Source: a virus
Length of the DNA: 64,000 bases
Reading direction: 5' to 3' (one strand)
IMG/VR virus record: IMGVR_UViG_3300017991_000060
Location: 1-64,000 of that record
Positions 1-22,425 of this stretch are shown here, piece by piece; position 1 is the first letter of the stretch; the number at the start of each line of letters is the position of its first letter. Made by a program: the position numbers and the translations under genes. The notes beneath the pieces were generated by a model. The model did not search any database. It worked only from the letters and a program-made list of their open reading frames with translations, and had not been told where the DNA came from.

Positions 1-413
1 CACCTACCAAGGAACCACCACCCGCCCTTCCGCTTGCACTCGCCCTCCCGCTTGATCTTCTTCCACTCCCGCTCCTCCCAGTCCTTCGCCCACTTGGGGG
101 TACCCTGGTGAGCCGCCACCGCACCCCCGGCCGCCGCGGCGACGAAGGGGAACACTTCGTCAAGCTGCCTGCCGGATCGGCTGGACTGGTAGGAGTACCG
201 GAGGCTCTCCGAGAGGTGGAACTCGCCCCCGAGGGCCTCGGCGTCATCCCCGAGCATGTCCGCCACCCTGGAGTCGGTGGTGTAGGCCGTCACCCAGGTG
301 CCGGACTTCTCGGACTTGACACGCCATCGGTACGGTGGCTTCATCTCGATGAGGCGTTCGAACGCGACCGCCTCCGCATCGCCAGGGAACTCGAACGCCA
401 AACGGAATCTCAT
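1..413 (-). CDS. Hypothetical protein, 5' part (gene runs off the window)
   Basis: An open minus-strand frame starts at the ATG at 413 and has no stop before base 1 (137 codons visible). The start overlaps the stop of the upstream Nudix/ART gene by 4 nt (ATGA), so the two are translationally coupled. It begins MRFRLAFEF, which loosely recalls the MRFTYE starts of genes at 21367 and 22174. The visible part has a hydrophilic first half, a short AAAAGGAV stretch and a lysine- and tryptophan-rich end. No family recognised. Confidence 0.75.
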   Translation of the reverse strand, partial: MRFRLAFEFPGDAEAVAFERLIEMKPPYRWRVKSEKSGTWVTAYTTDSRVADMLGDDAEALGGEFHLSESLRYSYQSSRSGRQLDEVFPFVAAAAGGAVAAHQGTPKWAKDWEEREWKKIKREGECKRKGGWWFLGR

Positions 414-3400
414 CTTACCCTCCGATCCGACTTGCGTTTCCGCTTCGCTAGCCACTTGTCGTTGGCGCGCTTCCAGTCCGCTCGGATGTCGTCCTTCGTG
501 ACCTTCCCTGCGATGTACTTCTTGGCAAGCCCGATAGTGCGCGCGCCTGCTGGCTCGATCCCAAGCTCGCGGCCTTTCTCCGTAGGCTCGACCTGGAACG
601 TCCGTACCACCCTGGTGATGCTGTCACCGTAGGGACTGTCCGACTTCCGCACCATCATCTCGTCTTGGATCTTGTTGACCCGCGCGAGGTCCGAGACGAA
701 AACGTCGCTCTTGAGCACCATGCCCAAGTATCGAAACGCTTCTGTGACCCACAGGCGTCGTTTGCCGCTCGCGAACTCAGGCTGGAGGACTGACGCCCAC
801 AACAGACGCCGCGCGAGGTTGCGCGCGCCCTCTTTCAGTTTGCTCTCCGCCACCTGGAGGACCTCCAGGTCCGGGTACTCATCGGCCAGGTCCGCTACAG
901 CCTTCTCCGCGTCGGGCTCACAGTGGTGCCCCCAGGGCTCCAGCTTCCCGCCGCGCTTCCGGTCGAACTTGGACACTTGCCACGGGCGGCCGGGATCACA
1001 GTCACCGCGGACGGAACGGTGAATCATGAACTCCTGGCGGTTCTTCTTGGATCGTAGGTGCACGCCGTGCTTCGCGCCGCGAACCTTGCGGACCATCACG
1101 TTGGAACGCTCCGCGGTGCGGGCCATGCCCCGGATGACGTCCTTCATCGGCCCTTCGATGCGGAGCCGCTTGAAGCGGTCCTCGAACTCCTGGTAGGTCA
1201 TCGCTCCGTTCTTCACCTTGTCCAGAAGGTCGAACCCGAGGCCCAGGTCGTCTCCCTTCGCCTCGGCTAGCTCCTTTGGCGTGAGCTTCCAGGCGAGGAC
1301 CGGCCCTTGTAGCCGCTCGGCGTTGAACATGGCCCCGAAGAAGTTCTGCCAGTCCTGGTCGCTCCAGCCGCACTGGTAGCCCTTCGTCGTCTCGCCCCAG
1401 TCGCCCTTGTCCTCCGTGCGGTGGATCGCGGCGAGGATCTTCCCGCCCGGCTTTAGGAGACCGCGGGCGGCCATGAGGACCTGGTGGCGGAGTGCCATCG
1501 TGGGGACCACGTTCAGCACGTAGTTCACCATGATGGTGTCGTACCGTTTCAGGAGCGGCTTGATGTCCGGGTGGTGCACGGGGTCGTACCGGGCGAAATC
1601 GTGCACATCGTGGCCCGCGCCATAATCGAGGACATCCCCGGTGAGTAAGCCCTGGTCCTGGTACATCTTCGCCGGCCGGCTGATCTCCTTCCGCGCGAGG
1701 GCTGTGGCCCCGCCCATCACCTTGTCGATGGTGGCGTCCTCGACGATCTCCCTCCCCAGGTAGGCTTTGGTCAGGGCGTCGCTCGCGTGGGCGGCGACCT
1801 CGAACGGGCACGCCACGCTCTCCCCGCGCTTCTTCATCGCCTCCGTCAGCTTCGGAACGACCTCCGCCTCCCAGTACTTCTTGTAACCGATGCGGTTCCG
1901 GTCGGGGTTCAGCTTCTCCCAGGCGGAGGAGCGCGCCTTGCTCGCCTCCACGTCGAAGCCCTGATAGTCGTCTCGGACGAAGGCCCACTTGTGGTGGTAT
2001 ATCTGGGGGTTCTCCGCGTTGTAGGGACGATGTGCCGCCTGGGCCACACCCTTCGCCACGCTCCAAGAGTCGCCCACCGTCGGCTCATCCGCGGCGTTCC
2101 AGTCGGGGGAGCTGGTGAACGTCACCTCGTCCGTCTGGCGGTCCCATCGGATGATGGAGTACCGCGCATCCTGGGGGAGCGCCTTCTCGGCCTCGGCCAC
2201 CCGCTCGTTCGGGATGGGCGAGTCGTCGAGGGCGGTGTGATGCACGTAGACCTTAGAGCCCACGACCTTGCCGGGTTGCCGCGCTTCTGACTCCGTGACC
2301 ATCAGCCCAGAGGACTCCTCCAGGCTGGCGCCGAGGCGGCCGACGTTCGGGTTGAAGTCGTAGGAGTACCCGTCCGGGCTCCGCCGGAGCGACTTGTCCA
2401 GGAGGTTGTCGATGGAATCGCCCAGCCCCTCGATGCCGGAACGGCTGAGCTCGTACCAGTCCCCATCCGTCGGGTCCCAGACAAAGAGGTCTCGTGCCGG
2501 GACAGACCCCCGCGAGAAGTAGTAGTCGTACTTGTTCTCCATGTCCTCGCGGTACTCGACCCCGTGCCGCTTCTTCACCTGGTAGGAGAGGACCACCACC
2601 GTACGGTCCCGGTGCGCCTCACGCCACTTCTCCTCCAACTCCTCCGGGTCGCCCCAACTGACGTAGAACTCTTCCCACTCCTCTTCTGTCTCCGGCTTCT
2701 CATCGAGAGGGGGGAACTCTGGGGCGCCGTACTCTGCGTGTTGTCCGAGCACGATATACCAGTTGTCCACGCGGTCGGCCGTCGCGACGAACACCTTGCC
2801 CCGGCTGTGTCCGGCGTAGGCCGGGGCGGTCGCGCCGATTCCACCACCCCCGGCGCCCGGCTTCAGCCCGTGGCGTCGAATGCTTTCCAGATGCCCGAAG
2901 TACGTGACGTGGTAGAGCCAAGTGTCCTCCGGCACATTGACCTTGTCTCGGAAGGCCATCTCCGCCAGCTCGGGGGCGGACTCGGCCGCGCGGTGGATGC
3001 GTGCGCCACTATGCTTCAACAGTGCCTCCAGCCCGAAGTGCTTGGGGCGGAGACGCTGTAGCTCGTCCCAAGTCACCCACTCCGCCAGCGCGGTTTCCCA
3101 GTTGAGCTTTGGTTCGAACTCCTCATCCACGAGGCCGATGAAGTTCGAGTACCGGAAGCCGCCCCCAGGCGATGTGAACACGTAGGCGGGGAAGAGATCG
3201 ATGTCACCGCGGTACCCAAGCTCTTCCTCAATCTCTCGAAGCGCGGCCTTCTTCGGGTCCTCCCCCGCATCAATGGCTCCCCCAAAGACGCCCCAGGTGT
3301 TGGGCTCGTTTACGTGGGGGGAACGTAGGCCAACCAAGATGCGGCCGGTCCTGGGGCAGATGGGAAGCACCCCAGCGCCAGCGTTGCCCCAGAACGGCTC

Positions 3401-3472
3401 ACCGCCAGCGTGGGTGTACGCCGCTTCTAGAAAGTCCCGCACCCATTTCCCGGCGATCTCAGAGAGGTTCAT
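410..3472 (-). CDS. Giant multidomain protein: Nudix + ART-like + methyltransferase-like
   Basis: This 1020-aa protein starts at the ATG at 3472, which has GGAGG five bases upstream; the ATG four codons earlier has no usable spacing. Residues ~30-150 are a Nudix hydrolase domain with a complete box (GX5EX7REUXEEXGU, read as G-AIDAG-E-DPKKAAL-REIEEELGY). Residues ~185-345 look like an ADP-ribosyltransferase fold: LYHVT, then HLESIRRHGLKP, then GKVFVA. Residues ~590-730 resemble a class I SAM methyltransferase (DVLDYGAGH, NYVLNVVP, LLKPGGKIL). The last 200 residues are Lys/Arg-rich. The region around HHKWAFV (~residue 494) is unassigned. Such Nudix/ART combinations occur in phage proteins that modify host proteins or NAD/ADP-ribose; virion packaging and injection is only inference. 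First gene after the divergent promoter region. Confidence 0.8.
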   Translation of the reverse strand: MNLSEIAGKWVRDFLEAAYTHAGGEPFWGNAGAGVLPICPRTGRILVGLRSPHVNEPNTWGVFGGAIDAGEDPKKAALREIEEELGYRGDIDLFPAYVFTSPGGGFRYSNFIGLVDEEFEPKLNWETALAEWVTWDELQRLRPKHFGLEALLKHSGARIHRAAESAPELAEMAFRDKVNVPEDTWLYHVTYFGHLESIRRHGLKPGAGGGGIGATAPAYAGHSRGKVFVATADRVDNWYIVLGQHAEYGAPEFPPLDEKPETEEEWEEFYVSWGDPEELEEKWREAHRDRTVVVLSYQVKKRHGVEYREDMENKYDYYFSRGSVPARDLFVWDPTDGDWYELSRSGIEGLGDSIDNLLDKSLRRSPDGYSYDFNPNVGRLGASLEESSGLMVTESEARQPGKVVGSKVYVHHTALDDSPIPNERVAEAEKALPQDARYSIIRWDRQTDEVTFTSSPDWNAADEPTVGDSWSVAKGVAQAAHRPYNAENPQIYHHKWAFVRDDYQGFDVEASKARSSAWEKLNPDRNRIGYKKYWEAEVVPKLTEAMKKRGESVACPFEVAAHASDALTKAYLGREIVEDATIDKVMGGATALARKEISRPAKMYQDQGLLTGDVLDYGAGHDVHDFARYDPVHHPDIKPLLKRYDTIMVNYVLNVVPTMALRHQVLMAARGLLKPGGKILAAIHRTEDKGDWGETTKGYQCGWSDQDWQNFFGAMFNAERLQGPVLAWKLTPKELAEAKGDDLGLGFDLLDKVKNGAMTYQEFEDRFKRLRIEGPMKDVIRGMARTAERSNVMVRKVRGAKHGVHLRSKKNRQEFMIHRSVRGDCDPGRPWQVSKFDRKRGGKLEPWGHHCEPDAEKAVADLADEYPDLEVLQVAESKLKEGARNLARRLLWASVLQPEFASGKRRLWVTEAFRYLGMVLKSDVFVSDLARVNKIQDEMMVRKSDSPYGDSITRVVRTFQVEPTEKGRELGIEPAGARTIGLAKKYIAGKVTKDDIRADWKRANDKWLAKRKRKSDRRVR

Positions 3473-3539
3473 ACCGTCCTCCATCCCCTGGAGGATACCA
3501 AGCTCGGCAGCCAGCGGCTAGAGAGCTCCTCCCTACCGT

Positions 3540-12963: not shown

Positions 12964-15900
12964 CTACTTCCTCAACCGCCGTTTCCGGCGCTTCCTTGGC
13001 GGTCCCGACTTGTGGTCCGACTCGTGATCGAAGGCGGCACGGTTCGCCAGGTTCCCCGCCGCGTTGTTCCTGGTGTTCCCATCCTTGTGGTGAACGTGCT
13101 TCCCGTCCCCCACACGGGCCTTGCCCTTCTTGATGAGCTTGTACCGGGCGCGGTTCCTCGCGCATCGGTCGTCCTTCCGAGCGCGCGTCTCGCGGGCGTA
13201 CTCGGCGCGGTAGTCCCGCTCGCGCTCCTGGAGCCGTGACCCTTCCCGCCACTTCGAGCCGAGGTCCGTCAAGCCGGAGGGCGGGATGCTCTTGAGCCCG
13301 TGGTGGCGCTTGATCTCCTGGAACATCGCCGTGGCAACACCGCGCCGGCGGTGCTCCTCGGGGACTTCGATGTGGTCGATGCGCGCCGTGCCGTCATCGA
13401 AGTACGAGTACTCCACCTTCCCCACCACGCGCCCGGCGTGGTCTCGGGCGATGAGGCCCATGTAGTGCTGCCCCTGGTAGCTGTCCGTGTGGAGGTGCTC
13501 GAAGCGGAGCCCGAGGGCCGGCATGATGGCCGGCTTGCCGTGCCGCTTCTCCAGGTAGCGGAGGATGGTGTCCTCGCTCGGGGAGGTGGGCGCGTGCTCC
13601 AGGTGCAAGCGCCCGCCCTTCCAGGAGGCGAAGCGCCCGCCCCCCATCCAGAGGAGGTCCAGGGCCACCCCGTCCGTCCAGAGCTTCGCGGACTCCGCCG
13701 GCCGCCGCGCGAGGAAAGCGTCGATGACCTTCTTGTGCGCCGGCGTGAGCTCGATGCGCTCCATCACGATCTCTCGCCCGTGTAGGTACCCCTTTGCGGC
13801 GAAGTCCTGATGCAGCGCGAGGGCATCCGGGGTGCGGTCGTCAGAGACGAGCAGCTTGCCGCCCTGCTCCCTAGCCCACCGCGCGGCGTGGCGGTACATC
13901 TTCGTCGCCCATCCCCTACGTTGGAAGGCGGGCCACACCATCACGTTGCTCACCTCGAACCCGCCCGGCACGGGCACGACAGCGATCTCCCCCACCTCCT
14001 TCCCACCGTCCCGGAAGATGAACTGGTGCTTGCCTCCGTAGCTGGCGTGCTGTATCGCCGCTTCGGTGAGCCCGCCGCCGTGGGCCTTGTGCACCGCCAT
14101 CACGGCCGGAACGGCGCGCCTCACCACGTCCTCGGCCGGACCATCCAGGACCAGGAGACCCATGCGCGCGAGCATGGGGAGGGTGTAGGGGGGCGAGATG
14201 CGGTACCGTCGGCTCACCGGGTCCTTCATCCACCCGCGCTTGCCGCGCTTCTCCCGCGCGAGCCACTGGTCGCAGTCGTCGTTCGGGTTCGAGGGGGTGA
14301 GGTGGCCTTGCTCGTCGTCCATCTGATGCTTCGTCACGTCCGGGCGCGCGGTGTCGTAGTGCTTCCAGACACGGTACGCCGCGGGGGAGAGGTCCTGGCG
14401 ATCCGAGATGAGCCCACCGCCCATGATCGAGGCGAGCTCGATGGCCACGTCGTAGAGTAGCGGCCCGAAGCCGTGATCGGAGCGAGAGAAGTCCACCTCC
14501 CAAGCACCATCGCACGGCGTCTCCGGGTTGTCGATGCGCGCGATGGTGATCCGGCCCGCGGGGCGCGCGGCCGGGGAGTCAGCCTCCAGGTCCCAGTACT
14601 GGGTGAGGATGATGTTGTTCCCGGCGCGGACCCAGACCCCTACACCGGGCGGGAGCGCCTGGGGTCCCTTCGCCGCTTCGGTGAGCGCGCCGCGGATGGT
14701 GTCCTCGCGGTCGCCGCCGTCGATCACCAGGCGGTCCATGCGCGCCAACATGGGGAGGGTGTAGGGAGGGTCGATCACGTACCGGCGAGAAATGGGGTCC
14801 TTCACCCACCCGCGCTTGCCGTACTTCTGCCGCGAGAGCGCCTGGTCACAGTCGTCCTCTGGGCGCGCCGGCGTCAGCGTCCCGTACTCATTGTCGAGCT
14901 GGTGCTTCTCCACGTCCGGCCGCTTGGTGTCGTAGTGCTTCCAGACTTTCCGCGCCGAGTTGGAGACGGACCGGCGATCCGAGATGAGGCCGCCGCCCAG
15001 GATCGAGGCGACCTCCACCGCGGCGTCGTAGAGGAGCGGCCCGAAGCCATGCGTCGCCCCGGACATCTTCACCTCCCACGCACCCTCGCACGGCCAGATG
15101 CTCTCGACGCGATGGAACGTGATCTCCCCCTCCAAACCTGGCCGCTCGGACGGCTCCCCAGTTTCGAGGTCACAGTAGTACACCTTGCTGATGTAGTTAC
15201 CGGCGCGCACGCCGATTCCGATGCCCGACGGGAGGTCGCGCGGCCCCTTCGCCACCTCGTCGAGCGCGGCCACCCGCTCCCGGATGTGTAGGCGTTCAGT
15301 CAGGTCAGCCCGGAGGGCGTCCTCGGCCTCCGCCATCTCCCAGGGGTCCAAAGGTCCAGCGAAGTCGCTCGGCTGCATGTCGGTGTGCTTCGCGAGGCGC
15401 TTCACCACTGACGGGATGTGCGGCCCGTTGTAGTAGAGGCGGCCCGCCTTCGCGAGCGCACGCATCGTGCTCCTCGGGTCCTTCTGGGAGCGCCGGAAGC
15501 GGCGGGACAGGGCGCTCAGGTGCCACGGGTCCGCGTCATCCTCGGCCGATCCCTGGTCACAGTCGTCGCTCGGGTCCTGGGGGGTGAGGTCGCCGTATTG
15601 GTTGTCGAGCTGTGCCTTCGTCACGTCGCGGCGGCGCTTGTCGTAGTAGCCCCAAACGCGGGCGGCGTCACCGGACACCGTGACCCGATCCGACATGAGC
15701 CCTCCCCCAGCCGCGGTGGCGAGCTCCATCGCCACGTCGTACAGGAGCGGCCCCCATCCACGGCCCGCCTCAGCGCCGGACACCATGAAAGCATCGCTAC
15801 ACGGGCCGTGCCCGCCGCGATCAATGCTCACCTCACCGCGCATCTCGGCCTCATCCTCAGCGGCGATGTCCCAGTACACCACCTGGAAGGAGTTGGGGCT

Positions 15901-17067
15901 GTAGGAGAGGAGGAGAACCACCATGTTCGGGTCCTCACGCACCAGGTCCGCCACACCCTTCGCGGATTCGACCAGGGCCGGGGTGCGGCGGCGCTCGGGA
16001 AGGAACTCCTTCCAATCGGCAGACTCAACCTCCACGTTCGGGGAGACGGCCTGCTTATAATCCGCCTCGAACTGCGGGACCCCCTCCCCGTAGACGCGGT
16101 ACAGCTTCTTCCACTTCTCGTCGTCGCGGGGCTCCACGTACATCGCGATGATCCGGTTCCGGCCGCGGAACCCTACAACGGACTGGAGGCGGCGGTGCGG
16201 CGCGATGGCCGTCGCCGTTTCGTACCGGCTCATCTCTTTCGAGATGCGGTCGAGCATCCGGCGATGCGCCTTTTCAGCTTGGGGGATGGTGGGGGCGAGG
16301 GCGTAGAGCTTCGCCTTGGTGATCTCCCAGGCGTCATCACCCTTCAGCCCGCGCATGAAGTCCCTGGCCGTCTTGCCGTCGAGCTTCATACCCTGGTCCA
16401 ACGCGGCTTGAACGAACTCGGGGCTATAGTATCCGGCGCGCTCTCTCTCCTCCTTCACGTAGTACGCCACGGCACGGTTGAGCTCTGTGTGTACCAGGGT
16501 CGGAGCCATGCGGCGGAGGAACTTCTCGTGCTCCGGATGGAGAGCCCCACCCATCCAGTGACGCGAGAGCTCCTCGATGAACGCCTCGGTGAACTTGTCC
16601 TCGACCTCGCGGCGGAAGGTGGCGTCAGCCTTCATCCGTGTCCACGTCTGAAACACAGTGTAGGAGTGGCCGAGGTCGAACATGTACCGGCCGGGGATGC
16701 CCATACCGCGTTCGAGGGCGCTCTTAACAGTCGTGTTAATGCGATCCTCGTCCCAGTACCCAGCCTTCTCCTGGGCCTCGATCACGATGTAGAGCTCCTC
16801 ACCACCGAACTTGCGCGCGGTGTTCCCAGCGGAGCTGCTGGCGGTGTGGAACTTCGGCGTAACGTAGACCCCACGGAGGGAAGCACGGCTGGGCCGCGTG
16901 GCGCTCGCGTCCGGGTCGGCCCGCCACGTCTTGTGCGTCGGTTCAGGGGAGAGCCCGTTCGCCATGATCGACTTGAGGAAGTAGGTGGAGGTTCCGTGGT
17001 ACACGATGCGACGATAGTTGAAGCGGCGCTCGTTGAGGACCTGCCACATCTGGTACGTGTAGGCCAT
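12964..17067 (-). CDS. Giant multidomain protein: ART-like + three GNAT-like repeats + two GNAT + HNH
   Basis: A 1367-aa protein; the ATG at 17067 is nine bases after AGGAGG, while the ATG abutting that site is unusable. Residues ~20-130 look like an ADP-ribosyltransferase (IVYHGTS, LKSIMANGLSP, GVYVTP). Three ~150-residue repeats follow (about 370-510, 600-745, 795-940), each with GxGxGPLLYD...GGGL(M/I)SDR, VW..Y and a DDCDQ end; the glycine loop resembles GNAT motif A. Two clearer GNAT domains lie at ~1000-1100 (FQRRGWATKMY) and ~1195-1270 (HRRRGVATAMF). An HNH-like zinc-finger nuclease motif closes the protein (HVHHKDGNTRNNAAGNL, ~1330) before a basic tail. N-terminus MAYTYQ belongs to the shared start motif. 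Probably an effector set acting on host proteins; delivery unknown. Confidence 0.82.
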   Translation of the reverse strand: MAYTYQMWQVLNERRFNYRRIVYHGTSTYFLKSIMANGLSPEPTHKTWRADPDASATRPSRASLRGVYVTPKFHTASSSAGNTARKFGGEELYIVIEAQEKAGYWDEDRINTTVKSALERGMGIPGRYMFDLGHSYTVFQTWTRMKADATFRREVEDKFTEAFIEELSRHWMGGALHPEHEKFLRRMAPTLVHTELNRAVAYYVKEERERAGYYSPEFVQAALDQGMKLDGKTARDFMRGLKGDDAWEITKAKLYALAPTIPQAEKAHRRMLDRISKEMSRYETATAIAPHRRLQSVVGFRGRNRIIAMYVEPRDDEKWKKLYRVYGEGVPQFEADYKQAVSPNVEVESADWKEFLPERRRTPALVESAKGVADLVREDPNMVVLLLSYSPNSFQVVYWDIAAEDEAEMRGEVSIDRGGHGPCSDAFMVSGAEAGRGWGPLLYDVAMELATAAGGGLMSDRVTVSGDAARVWGYYDKRRRDVTKAQLDNQYGDLTPQDPSDDCDQGSAEDDADPWHLSALSRRFRRSQKDPRSTMRALAKAGRLYYNGPHIPSVVKRLAKHTDMQPSDFAGPLDPWEMAEAEDALRADLTERLHIRERVAALDEVAKGPRDLPSGIGIGVRAGNYISKVYYCDLETGEPSERPGLEGEITFHRVESIWPCEGAWEVKMSGATHGFGPLLYDAAVEVASILGGGLISDRRSVSNSARKVWKHYDTKRPDVEKHQLDNEYGTLTPARPEDDCDQALSRQKYGKRGWVKDPISRRYVIDPPYTLPMLARMDRLVIDGGDREDTIRGALTEAAKGPQALPPGVGVWVRAGNNIILTQYWDLEADSPAARPAGRITIARIDNPETPCDGAWEVDFSRSDHGFGPLLYDVAIELASIMGGGLISDRQDLSPAAYRVWKHYDTARPDVTKHQMDDEQGHLTPSNPNDDCDQWLAREKRGKRGWMKDPVSRRYRISPPYTLPMLARMGLLVLDGPAEDVVRRAVPAVMAVHKAHGGGLTEAAIQHASYGGKHQFIFRDGGKEVGEIAVVPVPGGFEVSNVMVWPAFQRRGWATKMYRHAARWAREQGGKLLVSDDRTPDALALHQDFAAKGYLHGREIVMERIELTPAHKKVIDAFLARRPAESAKLWTDGVALDLLWMGGGRFASWKGGRLHLEHAPTSPSEDTILRYLEKRHGKPAIMPALGLRFEHLHTDSYQGQHYMGLIARDHAGRVVGKVEYSYFDDGTARIDHIEVPEEHRRRGVATAMFQEIKRHHGLKSIPPSGLTDLGSKWREGSRLQERERDYRAEYARETRARKDDRCARNRARYKLIKKGKARVGDGKHVHHKDGNTRNNAAGNLANRAAFDHESDHKSGPPRKRRKRRLRK

Positions 17068-17115
17068 GAGACACATCCTCCTAGCCCGCCACGATACCAG
17101 ATGCGGCGGCTTAGT

Positions 17116-20748: not shown

Positions 20749-20966
20749 CGATACCTCCTAGACCTATCCGCATCCCCTAGTGTACTCGCAGCTAAGGCCC
20801 GCCGCTCATCGAACTCTCGTGCCAATGCGTCAACCGCTTCCCGCGGAAACGTCTGTAGGTGATCCGGCCTCAGCAAAACCCCCTTCCGCACGTACTCCCC
20901 GAGGAGGAGCTTAGAGCACGCGCCGAGCACGCAGGCCGCGTCGGCGTAGTGGATACGTTCCGTCAC
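20745..20966 (-). CDS. Small hypothetical protein
   Basis: A 73-aa protein; GTG 20966 overlaps the preceding stop (GTGA). Residues 8-18 read ADAACVLGACS; the C-terminus is Arg-rich. No family recognised. Confidence 0.65.
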   Translation of the reverse strand: MTERIHYADAACVLGACSKLLLGEYVRKGVLLRPDHLQTFPREAVDALAREFDERRALAASTLGDADRSRRYR

Positions 20967-21367
20967 CTCACGCTGCGTGCAATGGACATCAGCTCGTACT
21001 GTAGGCCCTGGTCGGTGACTTCCTTGGACAACGCCGCGGCGTCCCAGGTGTTCCAGTTCACCGGCATCTCTTCGACGATCTTCACCACCTTCTTCGCCGT
21101 GGCGAGGTCGCGGATGTCGTGCATCATCCCGAGGCCGGTGGGAAGGTGCGTGAGCACCCAGTCCTTGGTCGCCCCGGTACCCCACGAGTGTAGGCCCCAC
21201 AAGCGGCCCTTACCCACGATGTGACCCTTCACCGTGCGCGGCCCGTCATCCTCCATGATCTTGAACGAACCGCGGCCGGCACGCTTCGGCTTGTTGAGCG
21301 GCTCCGTCATGGCCCGGCGCTTTCCGCCTCTCCGCCTCGCTTCGCTCATCTCGTACGTGAACCGCAT
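20963..21367 (-). CDS. Hypothetical protein with MRFTYE start
   Basis: A 134-aa protein, ATG 21367 after GGAGGCGGCC. It starts MRFTYEMSEARRRGGKRR, sharing the first six residues, and the DNA around the start codon, with the next gene upstream. It has no recognised domain; the middle reads WGLHSWGTGATKDWVLTHLPTG. See the N-terminal motif finding. Confidence 0.8.
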   Translation of the reverse strand: MRFTYEMSEARRRGGKRRAMTEPLNKPKRAGRGSFKIMEDDGPRTVKGHIVGKGRLWGLHSWGTGATKDWVLTHLPTGLGMMHDIRDLATAKKVVKIVEEMPVNWNTWDAAALSKEVTDQGLQYELMSIARSVR

Positions 21368-21376
21368 GGCCGCCTC

Positions 21377-22174
21377 CTACTTCTTCGTCGGGTTGCCGAG
21401 GGCCGAACCGTACGAGCGGCCAACCTTGAGGAGCGTGTTGATGTCGAGTGGGACCACCAGGGACTTGAGCGTGAAGTTCGGGGTCGCGAGGAAGCCCTGC
21501 CCGAAGCGGTGGTGCCCATCGAGGATGTAGTCGTCGGAGCTCACGATGATGGTAGCACTCGTGGCGAGAAAGCCGCCGATTTCGGGCACGCCGAAGGCGA
21601 TGATCGACGCGATGCACTTGTCGAACCAAATCTCTCCCTGTAGAGGTTTCAGGGTCTTCACGGCGCGCATGACGACGGGGGCGCGGAGCTTGTCGTCGTT
21701 CGGGTCGCCGTCGCGCTGGCCGAGGACGGTCCACTCGATGTCACCGAACATGGGTGGGCTGGAGTGCTGCCACGGGAAGGGGTCGCCAGGAACGCACTGG
21801 GCGCACGCCATGTCCATGTCGGCGTGCGGGGAGAAGATGTCTACGTTTCCGGCGCGGATGTCCTGCTCGAACTGGCCGATGTCATCGGGCTCGATGACGG
21901 GCATCCGATCCCTGGGGATCGGGAGGGCGTGGCGCATCTTGGCCTTGAGCTGCGTGTAGTTCCGGTCGAAGTCTGGGAGCTCGGTGTCGAGGTCCAGGCC
22001 GACGGCCGAGAACATGCGCTCCGCCACCCGGCGCGCCTCCTGCGGCGACGTGGTGGCGACGTTGTGGGTGTAGCGACCCTTGTACCGCTTGAGATAGTCC
22101 TTGCCCCACGCCTCCTCCGCACTCGACCGCTCGACGATCATGGGGCCTTGGTACGACTCGTACGTGAACCGCAT
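21377..22174 (-). CDS. ParB-like (DGHHR) protein with MRFTYES start
   Basis: A 265-aa protein; ATG 22174 is preceded by GGAGG (7-nt spacing). The C-terminal half carries YILDGHHRFGQG (residues ~220-230), the signature of ParB/sulfiredoxin-fold proteins, preceded by a predicted beta strand (TIIVSSDD). The first ~120 residues are unassigned. The N-terminus MRFTYESYQGP belongs to the recurring start motif. It could be a nuclease or regulator; substrate unknown. Confidence 0.72.
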   Translation of the reverse strand: MRFTYESYQGPMIVERSSAEEAWGKDYLKRYKGRYTHNVATTSPQEARRVAERMFSAVGLDLDTELPDFDRNYTQLKAKMRHALPIPRDRMPVIEPDDIGQFEQDIRAGNVDIFSPHADMDMACAQCVPGDPFPWQHSSPPMFGDIEWTVLGQRDGDPNDDKLRAPVVMRAVKTLKPLQGEIWFDKCIASIIAFGVPEIGGFLATSATIIVSSDDYILDGHHRFGQGFLATPNFTLKSLVVPLDINTLLKVGRSYGSALGNPTKK

Positions 22175-22233
22175 GGCTTCACCTCCTCGTGGTCCTGACA
22201 GAATAGCAAAAGGACCTGGCGGGAGGCGAGAAC

Positions 22234-22425
22234 CTACACCCGCTGGAGCCACTCGGCGGGCACGACGCGCTCCTCGCCGCGGGATCGAACGAGGAACATG
22301 GGGGCGTGCTTCTCCTTCGTGCAGTCCTCCACGACGGTCGCCTCACGCCGTCCGCCGGGCCGCGTCTCCGAGCCGGACAGGCGCAACCAGTTCACGACGA
22401 GGACCCGTTCGCCTACACGCCACAT
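22234..22425 (-). CDS. Small SH3-like beta protein
   Basis: A 63-aa protein, ATG 22425 with GAGAGG six bases upstream. The pattern VGERVLVV...ATVVEDC...MFLVRSRGEERVVPAEWL suggests a five-stranded SH3-like barrel. Function unknown. Confidence 0.7.
   Translation of the reverse strand: MWRVGERVLVVNWLRLSGSETRPGGRREATVVEDCTKEKHAPMFLVRSRGEERVVPAEWLQRV

Follow-up and report, generated by a model that had tools for sequence, protein, structure and literature searches.

The analysed window, comprising the first 64 kb of the 117,865-base virus record IMGVR_UViG_3300017991_000060, begins with a long gene on the minus strand. Between positions 410 and 3484, the sole plausible gene is an open reading frame (ORF) of 1024 codons with a strong third-position GC bias. 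The fifth codon of this ORF, an ATG at 3472, has a Shine-Dalgarno sequence (GGAGG) 5 nt upstream, and the sequence upstream of the ATG at 3484 holds no GGAGG-type ribosome-binding site; therefore, a start at 3472 and a product of 1020 aa are likelier. The gene had been called at 410-3472 in an original prediction made from the sequence alone; the ORF, its codon bias, and the better ribosome-binding site bear out that call, and its boundary is probably the true start. Residues are numbered throughout from the ATG at 3484. The record also encodes a tail sheath, tape measure, baseplate wedge, head maturation protease, major head protein, terminase, DNA polymerase, and UvsX-like recombinase. Since sheath, tape measure, baseplate, head, and terminase genes are present, this is a contractile-tail phage, and the earlier label of phage is correct.

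The product was originally described as a fusion of Nudix, ADP-ribosyltransferase (ART)-like, and methyltransferase-like domains. This observation is confirmed, and extended by two parts that had been overlooked: a fourth domain, at aa 405-546, and, nearer the C-terminus, a segment at aa 800-881. The interpretation attached to it is partly supported.

At the level of sequence, the Nudix hydrolase domain (aa 29-160; 3005-3400, minus strand) is certain. It matches Pfam PF00293 with E = 1.4e-14 and 54.7 bits, well over the cutoff of 21.1, and PHROG_1198 with 8.5e-24. Measured against the consensus Gx5Ex7REUxEExGU, the Nudix box at aa 69-91 (3212-3280) is complete, as had been claimed, and reads G69-x5-E75-x7-R83-E84-x-x-E87-E88-x-G90. 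The closest homologues in named phages belong to the Burkholderia phages BcepSaruman and BcepSauron (50% identity), followed by Tunturi_5 (42%) and Erwinia phage Kaldavass (38%); relatives in IMG/VR are 50-69% identical, and a search of bacterial genome contigs found none. A proline 15 residues past the box is an ADP-ribose-type motif (PMC5389931), and P106 holds this position both here and in the related phage protein L129. The residue is serine in L131 and alanine in L132 and L133; given its replacement in L131 and L132, the proline does not fix the Nudix substrate. The NudC/NADH-type motif SQPWPFPxS was looked for and is absent, and the suggestion that the protein controls NAD-type RNA caps finds no specific support.

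Family alignments, AlphaFold, Foldseek, and profile comparison together point to an ART-superfamily (KptA/DarT/PARP-like) domain at aa 187-345 (2450-2926, minus strand), followed by a helical module tail at aa 346-392 (2309-2449, minus strand) that is conserved in L129. The ART region has no match in Pfam; as the sole query of direct searches it found nothing, and by sequence against the PDB it matched DarT only at E = 0.17. A motif scan of viral contigs (YHVT...GL) yielded a large protein family, in which a close subgroup keeps the pattern up to a conserved Trp; this set is biased by the scan pattern itself, and the HMM scores of the ART loci are inflated because the loci were pre-selected by YHVT...GL.P. 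A nine-member ART alignment was tried as a scanning profile and dropped as too diverse. The region nevertheless represents a genuine phage protein family, because the module is 43% identical over 228 aa to that of L129, which was reached independently by way of its Nudix domain, and because it has a confident AlphaFold model with fold matches in the ART superfamily.

The model of the ART region (41 sequences) has a pLDDT of 81 and a pTM of 0.78. In a Foldseek comparison with the PDB, the top 18 matches are KptA/Tpt1 chains, with probabilities of 0.87 to 1.00 and a best E of 6e-4; DarT ranks below them; TM-scores are only 0.27-0.30, so the predicted ART fold is likely rather than proven. Among fold matches in BFVD, those with ART-related names are DarT, RNA 2'-phosphotransferase, a Bodo saltans virus KptA/Ap4A hydrolase fusion, and PARP; the top match is a large phage protein named ParB/sulfiredoxin, and many of the remaining matches are uncharacterized proteins. 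By profile comparison, the family is related to KptA-like phage ARTs (probability 96%, E = 2e-9; negative control 0.16%), among which is the N-terminus of another polyvalent protein of the window (12964-17076, minus strand); no link emerged to ARTs of the Pfam ART-PolyVal type. The NAD-binding fold is not missing on structure prediction; with the reservation of low TM-scores, the region fits best on KptA/Tpt1 and on other ART-superfamily proteins.

The active-site positions read H192-F232-D320, with D320 immediately preceding strand 5. The histidine is invariant in the family, partly owing to selection by the search pattern. The aromatic second position holds Tyr or Phe in 40 of 41 sequences, and Phe in 17 of the 41, this protein included. 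The third varies across the family (D, E, Q, N, K, and P), and D320 and its DYY context are retained in L129, the closest ART relative. On the evidence of family, AlphaFold, and Foldseek, the original ART assignment is likely right for the fold; catalytic activity stays putative, given the low TM-scores and the H192-F232-D320 active site.

The middle and latter half of the protein resemble TIGR04096, a family named for a DNA phosphorothioation-associated putative methyltransferase. The whole protein scores E = 4e-14 and 52 bits, under the curated NCBI cutoff of 150, so it is a relative rather than a member and the label of DNA phosphorothioation is not transferable. A mid domain of unassigned function, with an IYHHKW motif (aa 405-546; 1847-2272, minus strand), corresponds to the C-terminal part of TIGR04096 (positions 324-464) and to PHROG_16075; its AlphaFold pLDDT is over 90, and Foldseek gave no match to a solved structure among the matches listed. 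A short variant of a class I SAM methyltransferase follows (aa 589-742; 1259-1720, minus strand), of which aa 594-676 match TIGR04096 positions 7-98. Both ends of TIGR04096 are present in swapped order, with the C-terminal part first. On the model, the methyltransferase-like part is of class I SAM (Rossmann-type) fold, with SAM methyltransferases as top Foldseek matches (E = 2.5e-4) and a glycine-rich motif I, DYGAG, at 620-624. The TIGR04096 match, motif I, and fold matches agree with the methyltransferase-like domain of the original prediction; this fold, like that of the ART region, stands as a prediction.

The swapped order occurs also in L142, L143, L156, L001, L005, L007, and L170, and methyltransferase-first order is kept in L008, L145, L160, and L172. 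The methyltransferase motifs here are DYGAG-34-NYVLNV and GYQCGW. The protein shares a short core with L142, L143, and L156, with 34 residues from DxGxG to NYVLNV versus about 50 in most others; it is about 45% identical to these three, and GYQCGW is common to all. L142, L143, and L156 form a phage methyltransferase subfamily with this shortened core and a strict GYQCGW, and in L156 the gene lies in a head gene cluster.

The protein carries unrelated enzymatic domains (Nudix, ART-like, and methyltransferase), where at least two mark a polyvalent protein. By sequence it is a mosaic whose Nudix and ART modules recur, reordered, in giant phage proteins. L129, a 2279-aa phage protein, has a Nudix domain 65% identical and an ART 43% identical to those described here, arranged as ART, ART-PolyVal, Nudix, a segment resembling aa 800-881, and then DarA_C with two more ART motifs; the corresponding C-terminal segment here (842-1087, minus strand) is shared with L129 at a BLASTP E = 7e-6. 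A 455-kb phage has its Nudix domain within a 3662-aa ORF also bearing two ART motifs, and gp273 of the cultured phage Tunturi_5 combines Nudix, three ART-PolyVal stretches, and GNATs in one protein. Nudix and ART motifs thus share one polypeptide at least 4 times (the 410-3484 protein, L129, Tunturi_5 gp273, and the 3662-aa protein); the pairing recurs, so this phage is not alone in having the fusion. The modules are also found apart: Nudix lacks a recognised ART in L131, L132, L133, L175, and L177, is paired with a 2H phosphoesterase in L131, and is absent from most ART relatives. Elsewhere, the ART-like subfamily of this protein is joined to a CCA-adding/poly(A) polymerase-type nucleotidyltransferase with an HD domain (L035, 1231-3258). 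In L136 (2805-16151), a giant ORF spans at least 4449 aa of the locus and 5914 aa of its record; it encodes numerous ART-like domains together with GNATs and a peptidase-like domain.

Several relatives are neighbours of head genes. The gene for L129 lies directly downstream of a portal gene; L156, a stand-alone protein of mid domain and methyltransferase, is encoded between portal and scaffold/major head genes; and the gene for Tunturi_5 gp273 adjoins that of a minor head protein. The C-terminus of L129 also resembles a protein encoded beside the likely portal gene of the studied phage (32% over 69 aa, E = 1e-5). Capsid-targeting sequences have been described for T4 (PMC9026906) and for DarB of P1 (PMC9024508). 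The ART protein L086 starts MKTYEQFIAEAM and the Nudix protein L178 starts MKNYNQFIKEN; both starts are like that of a T4-type phage protein annotated as an internal virion protein, MKTYQEFIAEAV.

The studied phage has a start pattern of its own. M-x-[FY]-[ST]-Y-[EQ]-x-[FYWS] begins four of its proteins (window 12964-17076, 20963-21367, and 21377-22252; record 105429-106034), where 0.2 are expected among 115 genes. The M-x-[FY]-[ST]-Y-[EQ] start resembles the T4 capsid-targeting start and, judged by sequence, may be a packaging signal of this phage. The window 21377-22252 protein, with its N-terminal FTYE signal, also has a ParB/sulfiredoxin-like motif, ILDGHHRFGQG, and no Pfam match. At the N-terminus of the 410-3484 protein, neither a T4-like nor the local [FY][ST]Y[EQ] signal was found; because the protein itself has no such start, we infer its packaging from its relatives. 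Its gene is not adjacent to head genes in the record, and on its left the contig ends. The main text of the Tunturi_5 paper reports no virion mass spectrometry. Possible head-protease sites, L[DE]E[AST]S, occur four times versus 0.2 expected, a count not used as evidence because the pattern was picked after seeing them. They lie in the major head protein (record 76276-77736), in the head protease near its N-terminus (79356-81635), in a protein encoded between the likely portal and terminase genes (105429-106034), and at aa 388 of the 410-3484 protein, in the linker after the ART.

We consider it reasonably probable that the gene encodes a polyvalent effector of early infection, packaged in the head and injected. 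The domains and their order, the recurrence of the modules, and the head-gene neighbourhoods of relatives are observed. From these we infer that the protein is packaged, injected, and released by proteolysis, that its domains are catalytically active, and which substrates they take. The chain would be synthesised late and packed into the phage head, where the head protease may cleave it between domains; it would enter the host cell together with the phage DNA, and its modules would then work as separate tools. The Nudix domain would hydrolyse a nucleoside-diphosphate-X, with ADP-ribose or another NAD-derived product as the leading guess; the KptA/DarT/PARP-type ART would draw on NAD+ in modifying a host macromolecule or nucleic acid; and the accessory domain and SAM methyltransferase, as a TIGR04096-like pair, would methylate some target. 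The effector reading is supported by the recurrence of the modules in giant phage proteins near portal and head genes, by the T4-type internal virion protein-like starts of ART (L086) and Nudix (L178) relatives, and by the head maturation protease and contractile tail of the phage. It is weakened by the missing N-terminal signal, the lack of adjacent head genes, the low ART TM-scores, and F232 in place of the usual tyrosine.

Part of this weakness bears on packaging itself. An ordinary intracellular multi-enzyme protein, produced during infection and never packaged, would need neither a capsid-targeting motif nor head genes beside it in the record, and the protein has neither; such a role is unlikely, as relatives of all three modules show a head-module location or capsid-targeting-like starts. 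Somewhat less doubtful, though still rather unlikely, is that the ART-like domain has degenerated into a non-catalytic fold for binding or packing, leaving the Nudix and methyltransferase domains as the only enzymes. The variable acidic residue before strand 5 and the Phe for Tyr that this protein shares with other family members speak for such decay; the invariance of H192, pattern-selected in part, and the retention of D320 with its DYY context in L129 speak against it.

Other alternatives couple the domains to each other. The original prediction proposed that the Nudix-ART pair builds and trims ADP-ribose marks. As one device acting on one target, such as protein or RNA, and leaving a phosphoribosyl scar, the pair would account for the repeated union of Nudix and ART motifs in one polypeptide and for the ADP-ribose-type proline P106. 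Yet domain order and spacing vary between cases, each domain mostly or often occurs apart from the other, and both P106 and the ART acidic residue vary; shuffling of this kind argues against a dedicated write-and-trim machine, which we regard as improbable. An RNA-repair role, in which a KptA/Tpt1-type 2'-phosphotransferase makes an ADP-ribose product that the Nudix domain disposes of, is very unlikely. The KptA/Tpt1 fold matches favour it, as do the KptA-Nudix fusion known in Bodo saltans virus (PMC9503650), which is BFVD fold match rank 18, and the 2H phosphoesterase adjoining the same Nudix in L131. However, the N-terminal RNA lobe of Tpt1 holds three of its four essential Arg-His-Arg-Arg residues (PMC6333775), no lobe precedes strand 1 here, and the R228 position is not conserved in the ART family; with the lobe and three essential residues missing, the ART module is not a Tpt1 enzyme. 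Slimmer still is the chance that one injected chain couples its activities: the ART would attach ADP-ribose to nucleic acid or protein of phage or host, the Nudix domain would cut the mark down to a phosphoribosyl scar, and methylation of the same target by the swapped TIGR04096 module would complete a composite modification that counters host defence.

The injected effector that we favour has parallels among the polyvalent proteins of phages and conjugative elements described by Iyer et al. 2017 (PMC5512222), with which it shares unrelated enzymatic domains including ART, reshuffled modules, and relatives near head genes. Unlike them, its ART is YHVT/KptA-like and is not matched by Pfam ART-PolyVal; in the passage of that study consulted, Nudix is linked only to InPase and does not occur in a Nudix-ART-methyltransferase combination. 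Tunturi_5 gp273, from a Tunturiibacter phage (PP885688; annotated MutT/NUDIX hydrolase; 1489 aa), likewise has a Nudix domain (42%) followed by ARTs and GNATs; it differs in having Pfam ART-PolyVal domains instead of a YHVT-type ART, and no TIGR04096-type module. TIGR04096 itself shares both parts with the protein, which departs from it in the swapped order, the score of 52 versus the cutoff of 150, and the shortened methyltransferase core. In structure, the ART module matches KptA/Tpt1 RNA 2'-phosphotransferase best; unlike that enzyme, it has no RNA lobe and an essential tetrad that is absent or not conserved. Alt, ModA, and ModB of phage T4 and Dar of P1 are head-packaged, injected anti-host proteins, and L129 carries a DarA_C domain. 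The T4 ARTs belong to the R-S-E class (PMC5512222); no similarity of the 410-3484 protein to them appeared in the searches made.

If the modules are active, a pair of NDP-X hydrolase and ADP-ribosyltransferase joins the injected arsenal of contractile-tail phages, as does a methyltransferase family named so far only from phosphorothioation neighbourhoods. The orphan C-terminal domain of TIGR04096 (PHROG_16075) gains a head-gene context. In the cultured Tunturi_5, it can be tested directly whether a related protein is packaged and active.

The protein encoded at 12964-17076 combines a capsid-targeting-like start, an ART-like domain, repeats, two GNATs, and an HNH. Its N-terminal domain is the one homologous, in profile, to the ART of the 410-3484 protein; three internal repeats of about 130 aa end in DDCDQ, and the HNH is C-terminal. 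The two genes had been proposed to form a set of host-takeover enzymes, a proposal that fits the ART-like N-terminus, the GNAT and HNH domains, and the capsid-targeting-like start of the second protein.
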